Part shown: positions 41,781 to 47,404 of the stretch, in pieces
Layout of the letters: every line of letters starts with the position of its first letter
How positions within the stretch are numbered: the first letter of the stretch is position 1
Program-made: the position numbers and the translations under genes
From: Burkholderia savannae
GTDB taxonomy: Bacteria; Pseudomonadota; Gammaproteobacteria; Burkholderiales; Burkholderiaceae
Assembly: GCF_001524445.2 (NCBI RefSeq)
Contig: NZ_CP013418.1
Span: forward strand, 62,001-126,000
Direction: 5' to 3'
DNA length: 64,000 nt
Notes under the pieces: generated by a model
What the model was told of the DNA's origin: nothing
The model's database searches: none
The model's input: only the letters and a program-made list of their open reading frames with translations

Positions 41781-42308
41781 ATGAGCGCTCCTTCCCGCCG
41801 GCTGGACCGGATCGACATCGGCATCCTCAACCAACTGCAGCAGAACGCGCGGATCACGAACGCCGAGCTCGCGCGCGCGGTGAATCTGTCGCCGACGCCG
41901 TGCTTCAACCGCGTCCGCGCGCTCGAGAAGCTCGGCCTCATCAAGCAACAGGTGACGCTGCTGAATCCGGAGCCGCTCGGGCTGCGGATCAACGTGTTCA
42001 TCCAGGTGAGCCTCGAAAAGCAGGTCGAGGACGCGCTGCGCCGCTTCGAAGAAGCGATCGACAAGCGGCCCGAGGTGATGGAGTGCTATCTGATGTCGGG
42101 CGACGCCGATTACCTGCTGCGCGTCGTCGTGCCGAGCATGAAGAGCCTCGAGCGGTTCATCCTCGATCAGTTGACGACGATCCCCGGCGTGTCGAACATC
42201 CGGTCGAGCTTCGCGCTCAAGCAAGTCCGCTACCGGACCGCGCTGCCGCTGCCCGCGGGCGGGCTCACGCTCGCGGGCGACGACGACGAATCGAACGAAT
42301 GGGTGTGA
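41781..42308 (+). CDS. Lrp/AsnC family transcriptional regulator
   Basis: A 175-residue regulator with an N-terminal helix-turn-helix ([20 protein letters not shown], then [18 protein letters not shown]) and a C-terminal RAM ligand domain ([52 protein letters not shown]). It is divergent from the PDH-type E1 gene and, like MdeR or BkdR, most likely controls it in response to an amino acid. The C-terminal tail of about 15 acidic residues is longer than in typical Lrp. Confidence 0.92.
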
Positions 42309-43923: not shown

Positions 43924-44067
43924 ATGAAGGCTTCGATCTTCCGGCGCGTCGCCGCCTTGCTCGCGCTGACGGGCTTCGTGCTCGGCCTTGCCGGCTGCAA
44001 CACGGTCGCGGGCATGGGCGAGGACATCAACGCCGCCGGCCGCGCGATCAAGCGCGCGGCGGACTGA
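43924..44067 (+). CDS. Entericidin A/B family lipoprotein
   Basis: A 47-residue lipoprotein precursor. After MKASIFRRVAALLALTG comes the lipobox LAGC, so the mature chain starts at the cysteine and has about 23 residues (CNTVAGMGEDINAAGRAIK), matching the entericidin core GxGxDI..AGxxI. Entericidins are small envelope lipoproteins associated with stress and cell lysis control. The gene begins two bases after the leuC stop and lies 77 bases before leuD, so it is transcribed with leucine genes. The position is conserved in Burkholderia relatives, by memory. Confidence 0.9.
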   Translation: MKASIFRRVAALLALTGFVLGLAGCNTVAGMGEDINAAGRAIKRAAD

Positions 44068-44886: not shown

Positions 44887-45954
44887 ATGAAGATTGCAGT
44901 GCTGCCCGGCGACGGCATCGGTCCGGAAATCGTCAACGAAGCGGTGAAGGTGCTGAACGCGCTCGACGAGAAATTCGAGCTCGAAACCGCGCCCGTCGGC
45001 GGCGCCGGCTACGAGGCGAGCGGCCATCCGCTGCCGGATGCGACGCTGAAGCTGGCGAAGGAAGCGGACGCGATCCTGTTCGGCTCGGTCGGCGACTGGA
45101 AATACGACTCGCTCGAGCGCGCGCTGCGCCCCGAGCAGGCGATCCTCGGGCTGCGCAAGCATCTCGAGCTGTTCGCGAACTTCCGGCCGGCGATCTGCTA
45201 TCCGCAGCTCGTCGACGCGTCGCCGCTCAAGCCCGAGCTGGTCGCGGGCCTCGACATCCTGATCGTGCGCGAGCTGAACGGCGACATCTACTTCGGCCAG
45301 CCGCGCGGCGTGCGCGCGGCGCCGGACGGCCCGTTCGCCGGCGCGCGCGAGGGCTTCGACACGATGCGCTATTCGGAGCCGGAAGTGCGCCGCATCGCGC
45401 ACGTCGCGTTCCAGGCCGCGCGCAAGCGGCAGAAGAAGCTGCTGTCGGTCGACAAGTCGAACGTGCTGGAGACGTCGCAGTTCTGGCGCGACGTGATGAT
45501 CGACGTATCGAAGGAATACGCGGACGTCGAGCTGTCGCACATGTACGTCGACAACGCGGCGATGCAGCTCGCGAAGGCGCCGAAGCAGTTCGACGTGATC
45601 GTGACGGGCAACATGTTCGGCGACATCCTGTCGGACGAGGCGTCGATGCTGACGGGCTCGATCGGCATGCTGCCGTCGGCGTCGCTCGACAAGAACAACA
45701 AGGGCTTGTACGAGCCGTCGCACGGCTCCGCGCCGGACATCGCGGGCAAGGGCGTCGCGAACCCGCTCGCGACGATCCTGTCGGCCGCGATGCTGCTGCG
45801 CTATTCGCTGAACCGCGCCGAGCAGGCGGACCGGATCGAGCGTGCGGTCAGGAAGGTGCTCGAGGCGGGTTACCGGACGGGCGACATCGCGACGCCGGGC
45901 TGCAACAAGGTCGGCACGGCGACGATGGGCGACGCGGTCGTCGCGGCACTGTAA
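44887..45954 (+). CDS. leuB: 3-isopropylmalate dehydrogenase
   Basis: A 355-residue NAD-dependent beta-decarboxylating dehydrogenase giving 2-oxoisocaproate for leucine. Motifs are [47 protein letters not shown] and the NAD loop [18 protein letters not shown]. The catalytic lysine and tyrosine lie in DKSNVLETS and DTMRYSEPE. It ends the leu genes; a 328-base gap with a leader ORF precedes asd. Confidence 0.98.
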
Positions 45955-46046
45955 GCGCCGCGAGCGCGGCGCGCGTTCGACGCGGCGCGTCGTCGCAACA
46001 AGGACGGGCGGCTCCGAAAACGGGGTCCGTCCGGTTTTAGCGGCCG

Positions 46047-46075
46047 TTGTGCGGCCACCGAGGTTTGTGTAGACT
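46047..46075 (+). promoter_or_regulatory. Possible asd promoter
   Basis: TTGTGC (46047-46052) and TAGACT (46070-46075) are spaced exactly 17 bases. The predicted transcription start, about seven bases after the -10, falls at or near the ATG of the leader ORF at 46082, so a leaderless start is possible. The hexamers are only partial matches. Confidence 0.35.
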
Positions 46076-46081
46076 CGAACG

Positions 46082-46198
46082 ATGGCGACTTCCCTGATCT
46101 CCCCGGTCTCGAAACTCCACGGCAATCAAGCCCGTGCGGGTGCGCGCGCCATCGTCATCGGCAAAATCATCATCACGAAAACGATCACGAAAATCTGA
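46082..46198 (+). CDS. Putative leader peptide of asd, rich in Ile, Thr and Lys codons
   Basis: A 38-codon frame beginning MATSLISPVSKLHG and ending with KIIITKTITKI directly before TGA. The last 11 codons are only Lys, Ile and Thr, the products of the aspartate pathway that asd serves (methionine is missing). A GC-rich hairpin follows within 16 bases of the stop. This is the layout of transcription-attenuation leaders such as thrL. No ribosome site is visible; the ATG could be at the 5' end of the mRNA. The peptide itself would have no function beyond ribosome stalling. Confidence 0.5.
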   Translation: MATSLISPVSKLHGNQARAGARAIVIGKIIITKTITKI

Positions 46199-46213
46199 TC
46201 GTCGTCCGTCGTG

Positions 46214-46259
46214 CCCGCCTGTTTCCCCGCGCGGTCGCGCCGGGGGCGGAAAAGGCGGG
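46214..46259 (+). promoter_or_regulatory. Compound hairpin between leader ORF and asd
   Basis: Outer stem CCCGCCT (46214-46220) with AGGCGGG (46253-46259), inner stem CCCCG/CGGGG around a CGCG pair. No T-tract follows; the asd ribosome site AAAGGG begins about 11 bases later. It could act in attenuation or by hiding the ribosome site. Confidence 0.45.
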
Positions 46260-46282
46260 GAAGCTCCAGCAAAGGGTTAGTC

Positions 46283-47404
46283 ATGAACGTAGGTCTCGTA
46301 GGTTGGCGCGGCATGGTCGGCAGCGTGCTGATGCAGCGCATGCAGGAAGAAGGCGATTTCGATCTGATCGAGCCGGTGTTTTTCAGCACCAGCAACGCGG
46401 GCGGCAAGGCGCCGTCGTTCGCGAAAAACGAGACCACGCTCAAGGATGCGACGAGCATCGACGACCTGAAGAAGTGCGACGTCGTCATCACGTGCCAGGG
46501 CGGCGACTACACGAACGACGTGTTCCCGAAGCTGCGCGCGGCCGGCTGGAACGGCTACTGGATCGACGCGGCGTCGTCGCTGCGGATGAAGGACGACGCG
46601 GTGATCATCCTCGATCCGGTGAACCTGAACGTGATCAAGGACGCGCTCGTCAACGGCACGAAGAACTTCATCGGCGGCAACTGCACGGTCAGCCTGATGC
46701 TGATGGCGCTGGGCGGCTTGTTCCGCGAGAACCTCGTCGACTGGATGACGGCGATGACGTACCAGGCCGCGTCGGGCGCGGGCGCGCAGAACATGCGCGA
46801 GCTGCTCGCGCAGATGGGCACGCTGAACGGCGCGGTTGCGGCGCAGCTCGCCGATCCGGCGTCGGCGATCCTCGACATCGATCGCCGCGTGCTCGCCGCG
46901 ATGACGAGCGACGCGATGCCGACGAGCCAGTTCGGCGTGCCGCTCGCGGGCTCGCTGATTCCGTGGATCGACAAGGATCTCGGCAACGGGATGTCGAAGG
47001 AAGAATGGAAGGGCGGCGCGGAAACGAACAAGATCCTCGGCAAGCCGGCGATGGGCGAGCCGGGCTCGATTCCGGTCGACGGCCTGTGCGTGCGGATCGG
47101 CGCGATGCGCTGCCACTCGCAGGCGCTCACGATCAAGCTGAACAAGGACGTGCCGCTCGACGAGATCAACGGCATCCTCGCGTCGGCGAACGACTGGGTG
47201 AAGGTCGTGCCGAACGAGCGCGAAGCGTCGATGCGCGATCTGTCGCCGGCGAAGGTGACGGGCACGCTGTCGGTGCCGGTCGGCCGCCTGCGCAAGCTCG
47301 CGATGGGTGGCGAATACCTGTCGGCATTTACCGTCGGCGATCAATTGTTGTGGGGTGCGGCCGAGCCGCTGCGCCGGATGCTGCGCATTCTGCTCGACAA
47401 GTAA
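46283..47404 (+). CDS. asd: Aspartate-semialdehyde dehydrogenase
   Basis: A 373-residue NADPH-dependent enzyme at the branch to lysine, threonine, isoleucine and methionine, and to diaminopimelate for the wall. The cofactor motif is [18 protein letters not shown]; the nucleophile cysteine is in [15 protein letters not shown] and the catalytic histidine in [22 protein letters not shown] lies before the ATG at 46283. The gene is flanked by a leader ORF upstream and an intrinsic terminator downstream, so it is its own unit between leuB and fimV. Confidence 0.98.

Follow-up and report, generated by a model that had tools for sequence, protein, structure and literature searches.

A putative leader-peptide attenuator with threonine, isoleucine and lysine codons before asd in Burkholderia savannae and related genera

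The asd gene of Burkholderia savannae is probably governed by a cis-acting, ribosome-mediated leader-peptide attenuator, which would sense threonine, isoleucine and lysine. That an Ile/Thr/Lys leader attenuates asd was the original prediction for this DNA, and it found support in the window (the whole stretch of 64,000 nucleotides that was analysed) and in related genomes: 13 of the 16 C-terminal residues of the leader are Ile, Thr or Lys, and the codon run and the structure that follows it are conserved across genera. Asd acts at the branch point from which lysine/diaminopimelate, threonine, isoleucine and methionine are made; beyond aspartate semialdehyde, lysine lies on one branch and threonine and isoleucine on the other. 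Two marks of an attenuator are present, a short leader ORF before a biosynthetic gene and a run of end-product codons that is conserved as amino acids. The observations comprise the codon run and its conservation, the placement of a −10-like box before the leader and the covarying helices behind it.

The leader reading frame and its distribution

A 38-codon frame ending with KIIITKTITKI was indeed found, as had been proposed, its stop lying 84 nt ahead of the ATG of asd (Table 1). The assignment of asd comes from the NCBIfam equivalog TIGR01745 (score 643 bits, cut-off 402.9); the gene upstream of the leader ORF is leuB (NCBIfam equivalog TIGR00169). Among 362 ORFs of 15–90 amino acids in the window, leader ORF included, the next-best count of Ile, Thr and Lys was seven of 16 residues, and the maximum among 42,515 ORFs from 4 Mb of random sequence (third-order Markov model) was nine of 16. 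The codon run of the leader is beyond chance. The peptide had no match in Pfam or NCBIfam. Three database proteins match it, two of them annotated as hypothetical proteins (B. thailandensis and B. oklahomensis) and one without a name. No convincing second copy was found in the genome itself, either of the peptide (next-best match E 0.18) or of the RNA element (next-best RNA-model match E 7.1).

Table 1. Features around asd, in positions of the window
Feature	Position	Strand	Sequence or pairing	Remark
Candidate −35	46047..46052	+	TTGTGC, 17-nt spacer	Present in Burkholderia loci; weak
−10-like hexamer	46070..46075	+	TAGACT, within TGTGTAGACT	6 nt before leader ATG
Leader ORF	46082..46198	+	38 codons, ATG...TGA; translation MATSLISPVSKLHGNQARAGARAIVIGKIIITKTITKI	Probably leaderless; leader plus downstream motif in 156 loci
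Regulatory codon run	46163..46195	+	KIIITKTITKI (Lys, Ile, Thr)	Ile/Thr/Lys content over 156 leaders
Helix H1 (1:2)	46181..46202	+	ACGATCA 46181-46187 with TGATCGT 46196-46202	Spans leader stop codon
Helix S1 (2:3)	46210..46239	+	CGTGCCCGC 46210-46218 with GCGGTCGCG 46231-46239	Comparative pairing
Rival nested fold	46214..46259	+	CCCGCC 46214-46219 with GGCGGG 46254-46259	Encloses CCCG/CGGG inner stem
Helix S2 (3:4)	46222..46263	+	TTTCCCCGC 46222-46230 with GCGGGGAAG 46255-46263	Comparative pairing, RNAalifold
asd Shine-Dalgarno	46271..46276	+	AAAGGG	GG invariant in 63 A1 sequences
asd, aspartate-semialdehyde dehydrogenase	46283..47404	+		TIGR01745 equivalog above cut-off

The leuCDB-asd cluster also contains a gene for an entericidin EcnA/B-family protein of 47 amino acids (43924-44067, +; PF08085, E 2.4e-08), which lies between leuC and leuD. 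Just upstream of leuC an Lrp/AsnC-type regulator (PF01037) is encoded at 41781-42308 (+), a possible regulator of the leu cluster.

The leader together with the downstream motif TTCC[AC]CGC was found in 156 loci, some species being counted twice. In the genus of the window asd was located in 61 of 61 genomes, and all 50 of the loci that were read carry both leader and motif. The same holds for 21 of 21 loci of genus g3, which is probably Cupriavidus/Ralstonia, for 38 of 40 loci of g10, g13, g20 and g25 (in L192 and L198 the leader is present and was missed by the start or motif filter), and for 41 of 43 named loci of Burkholderia, Paraburkholderia, Caballeronia and Trinickia, where the exceptions are L071, cut before the asd start, and L072, without the element. 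Two of the eight g8 loci pass the filter, and L141, L143 and L146 carry the leader too; among other named loci the count is four of 37, every one Cupriavidus. Leader plus element were not found in the remaining 33 of these 37 (including Pandoraea, Massilia, Duganella, Limnobacter and Zoogloea), one of which, L101, carries its own kind of leader, nor in nine loci of g7 and g15–g17, 12 loci of g11, 10 other loci of the family, or any of the 55 further loci of the order in which asd was located, one of these having another kind of leader. When 399 genomes of the order were searched with a covariance model under strict filters, six strong matches came up, all in the window's own family. Sixteen weak matches (E 0.007–0.98) were obtained as well; the surroundings of six of these were read (L237, L238, L239, L242, L243 and L244), none of them lying at asd, and the others were taken as chance. 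Judged from these sequences, leader and element are kept across several genera.

Identity along the locus was profiled over 29 sequences of our choice, gaps being scored as mismatches. It amounts to 0.17 for the leuB end and gap, 0.88 for the −10 box, 0.62 for the leader, 0.79 for the structured region and 0.94 for the start of asd. The proposed check, conservation of the Ile/Thr/Lys run and hairpin amid varying surroundings, came out in favour of the prediction, as run and downstream structure are kept across genera and the bases from leuB to the promoter are not. In the 156 leaders, Thr accounts for 33% of the last 14 residues, Ile for 27% and Lys for 18.5%, and every leader has at least one Lys, at least two Thr and at least two Ile among its last 16 residues; Met, which the pathway yields as its fourth end product, contributes 0.1% to the run. 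Under a crude rule for choosing the start, ORF lengths range from 22 to 99 codons and mostly fall between 37 and 64, and the N-terminal half is recognisable across genera (e.g., HG.TAR). For 800 leader pairs of the same length, pN/pS was 0.64 in the last 12 codons versus 1.19 in the preceding 12 (codons −24 to −13). Between close pairs, 632 single-base non-synonymous changes from Ile, Thr or Lys codons were scored, of which 188 stay within these three amino acids (29.7% versus 18.0% expected); most of the 632 leave them (T to A 169, T to P 100, I to V 73, T to S 53), and a single scored change touches a Lys codon; the close pairs are not independent, and these counts describe and do not test.

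Leaders of this composition were also met elsewhere in the order. Screening 60 further loci, in 55 of which the start of asd was located, gave one more, L266, whose family f14 has the leader in three of three genomes with 11, 13 and 11 Ile, Thr or Lys among the last 16 residues, and the locus L101, from a metagenome-assembled genome, has another before asd with eight of 16. The sequence downstream of the f14 and L101 leaders differs from that of the window. Read from sequence, Thr/Ile/Lys leaders stand at asd in at least three lineages, and either descent with rebuilding or convergence could account for this. In f14 (L314–L316), the leader of L314 lies close behind leuB, and its ATG is preceded by AGGAAG, which resembles a Shine-Dalgarno sequence. 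At L101 (1380–1495), folding predicts that GCGCCCTT, which follows the leader, pairs with AAAGGGCG in the Shine-Dalgarno region of asd, and that CACGACGA, which belongs to the leader, pairs with TCGTCGTG; this predicted layout would be a cleaner translational-attenuator arrangement than the window's own. A search with the L101 leader gave weak matches, the best with E 0.011, in 188 of the 399 genomes.

Promoter and RNA helices around the leader

The −10/−35 pair with 17-base spacing that had been proposed to start the mRNA close to the ATG was confirmed in part. The pair TTGTGC-17-TAGACT is present, and its −10 side is conserved, with a mean pairwise identity of 0.88 for the stretch around the hexamer in the 29 sequences; the −35 side is not, its identity across genera being only 0.31, and a scan of the site for the sigma-70 consensus passed nothing. 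A box of the form TGTA.A[ACT]T followed 6–9 nt later by an in-frame ATG was found in 151 of 156 loci, as TGTAGACT, TGTATATT or near variants. Because of this position of the box, the leader ORF is probably leaderless, with a predicted transcription start on the A of its ATG or beside it. Leaderless transcripts are documented in B. cenocepacia in the excerpted text of one study (PMC4603805), and leaderless mRNAs are numerous as well in Cupriavidus metallidurans according to excerpts of another (PMC7563307). Start-site and short-5′UTR tables accompany two studies (PMC4603805, PMC5688073), and a table of 82 short 5′UTRs is mentioned for B. cenocepacia.

Three helices, H1, S1 and S2, were followed in two alignments: A1, which holds 63 non-redundant sequences, and A2, which holds 22 rows that we chose after viewing the g8 sequences and draws its variation from the small g8 genomes and the Cupriavidus group. 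In A1, 92–95% of cells pair in H1, 95.4% in S1, where an internal mismatch is retained in most sequences, and 99.6% in S2, the most conserved helix, with six of nine pairs invariant. Taken together, 96.5% of cells in the three helices pair versus 31–53% when the partners are slid. The number of pairs changed on both sides in A1 does not exceed that of shuffles (409 of 500 reach it), most positions being invariant. In A2, four of the eight S1 pairs are changed on both sides and 93.8% of cells pair versus at most 70.3% when slid; one of 500 shuffles reaches this count of double changes, and slid versions give 0–2. For S2 four of nine pairs are changed on both sides and 91.4% of cells pair versus at most 64.4%, 19 of 500 shuffles reach the count, and versions slid by one to three columns reach 2–4. 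By this test S1 is better supported than S2, because fewer shuffles and slid versions match its double changes. A C–G to U–A exchange in H1 was read by eye in L147.

S1 and S2 would interlock as an H-type pseudoknot, with a first loop of 3–5 nt in 62 of 63 sequences. A rival nested fold was found in the same region; in A1 its outer stem is paired at 91.7% and its inner stem at 90.6%, and in A2 the outer stem is paired at 88.2% with two pairs changed on both sides, a count that 46 of 500 shuffles reach. Since S1 and S2 can coexist, mutual exclusion rests on this nested fold. Approximate energies average −26.7 for the nested fold and −25.4 for the pseudoknot, the latter being lower in 23 of 63 sequences, as an estimate made with a rough pseudoknot penalty rather than by a proper pseudoknot calculation. 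RNAalifold applied to A1 predicts S2 together with a pairing of the asd Shine-Dalgarno, and H1 and S1 are absent from its prediction. Dinucleotide shuffles are predicted to fold with energies as good as those of the real sequence (z = 0.32 for 46199–46282 and z = 0.00 for 46074–46310), and the support that the sequences lend to the hairpin comes from comparison, not from energy. The compound GC hairpin claimed to follow the stop is present, but what is conserved looks like a pseudoknot set against a nested hairpin, and its energy is unremarkable.

Permutation of synonymous codons revealed no selection for the 1:2 pairing (mean z −0.28 in 25 leaders of our choice), and for CGTG with the leader, pairing came to 0.86 in the real codon order versus 0.83 in shuffled order, being higher in 69 of 112. 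Rfam searches of window positions 45000–47000 with E up to 5 gave three snoRNA-like matches only, all below gathering scores, and those of six loci with E up to 0.5 gave one unrelated weak match and no match to Thr_leader. Four g8 genomes of 1.1–1.2 Mb, probably endosymbionts, were examined as well, three of which retain part of the RNA element. S1 is paired at nine of nine positions in L145, at eight of nine in L147 (the usual mismatch excepted) and at five of nine in L146, which has a shifted stem ATTCTAAG/CTTAGAAT in place of S2. In L145 and L147 S1 persists where the leader ORF looks decayed, and in L140, also of 1.1–1.2 Mb, none of the element was seen upstream of asd.

Proposed mechanism and alternatives

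From these observations we infer the start site, the stalling, the switching and the output as follows. Transcription would begin at the leader ATG and a ribosome would initiate on the leaderless ORF. Under a shortage of charged tRNA for Thr, Ile or Lys, the ribosome would stall on the codon run (46163–46195) and keep helix 1:2, i.e., H1 and its extension, open. CGTG at 46210–46213 would then be free, S1 (2:3) could form beside S2, and expression of asd would be released. When all three are plentiful, a ribosome at the stop codon would sterically cover the start of S1; alternatively, the 1:2 pairing would cover it after release of the ribosome. With the start of S1 covered, the RNA would adopt the rival nested fold and asd would be turned down.

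Several results bear on the output. A terminator scan detected none at the site between leader and asd and did detect the one after asd, and at least five T in the 8 nt after S2 occur in only two of 63 sequences. An ordinary intrinsic terminator at this site is unlikely from the sequence because no U-tract follows the hairpin, and the expectation that the leader would work as known thr leaders do was not borne out in this part. For the same reason the output would most likely be translation initiation of asd or access of Rho rather than a standard intrinsic terminator. In the RNAalifold prediction, GYCY in the 5′ arm of S1 (columns 47–50) pairs with the asd Shine-Dalgarno, the fourth pair being broken in 11 of 63 sequences, and this predicted pairing suggests translational control of asd. 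Ribosome positions simulated for 13 loci caused no consistent change in the openness of the asd Shine-Dalgarno.

A classical transcription attenuator, in which S2 and the inner stem form a terminator that has a poor U-tract and S1 serves as antiterminator, would suit the 1:2, 2:3, 3:4 topology, the position of S2 as the most conserved helix and the long hairpin that L146 has in its place; the negative terminator scan and the rarity of T after S2 speak against it, and we consider it unlikely. The pseudoknot could also be a riboswitch-like element for asd that binds a metabolite or protein, with the leader ORF as a second, separate device. The invariant TTCCCCGCGC and GGGGAA with covarying helices do resemble an aptamer, and in the two small genomes L145 and L147 the S1 helix outlasts the leader ORF. 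This reading is decidedly improbable, however, as there is no relevant Rfam match, leader codons and element are retained together in 156 loci, and such leaders are followed by different sequence in f14 and L101.

Incidental codon content would be expected if the leader were a functional small protein, or a uORF for translational coupling only. Recognition of its N-terminal half across genera and two database relatives annotated as hypothetical proteins agree with this, but pN/pS is higher in codons −24 to −13 than in the Thr/Ile/Lys end, Pfam and NCBIfam hold no match, and we give the idea very little weight. That the frame is a chance ORF before an ordinary intergenic hairpin, for which only the folding energy z near 0 argues, can hardly be believed at all, as the codon run exceeds those of all the random ORFs and its conservation across genera contradicts chance.

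The attenuator sensing Thr, Ile and Lys remains our preferred reading. A fuller version is possible and is put forward tentatively: a three-amino-acid attenuator that covers both branches beyond aspartate semialdehyde, with a leaderless ORF and a pseudoknot that acts on translation or Rho access, similar asd leaders having arisen or been rebuilt with different folds in at least three lineages of Burkholderiales. If true, a leader with codons for both branches would be a compact way of letting one gene add up several end products. Lacking a terminator, the asd leader, which is small and conserved over several genera, would serve as a test case for attenuation with another output.

Relation to known systems

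The E. coli thrABC attenuator (Rfam Thr_leader) has a Thr/Ile-rich leader peptide, and the leader described here shares such a peptide before a gene of the aspartate family. It differs in the Lys codons of its run, in the gene, asd, in its probably leaderless ORF, and in being without a visible U-tract terminator and a relevant Rfam match. In ermC-type translational attenuators, a ribosome stalled on the leader ORF makes the RNA ahead of the downstream start site pair anew. Both systems would share the stall and the change of pairing; stalling is induced by a drug there and would be induced by amino-acid limitation here, where release of the asd start site is the presumed consequence. Attenuators in proteobacteria were reportedly the subject of a comparative study in 2004. 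Among the matches listed for the open-access literature, no description of an asd leader attenuator in the Burkholderia group was found, and the 5′UTR may have been detected before.

A leaderless start is described for two other systems. According to excerpts of the source, the RNA of the trpLE(G) leader ORF in S. meliloti begins with ATG (PMC7298713), so that its leader peptide is leaderless, as is predicted for asd; that system has Trp codons, is a transcription attenuator and controls another gene. For C. glutamicum ilvBNC, the excerpted text describes a leader mRNA that is leaderless and has hairpins acting as anti-antiterminator, antiterminator and terminator (PMC11857589). The likeness to the asd leader would lie in the leaderless leader mRNA and the alternative hairpins, whereas the ilvBNC leader has a demonstrated terminator, codons for branched-chain amino acids and an actinobacterial host.
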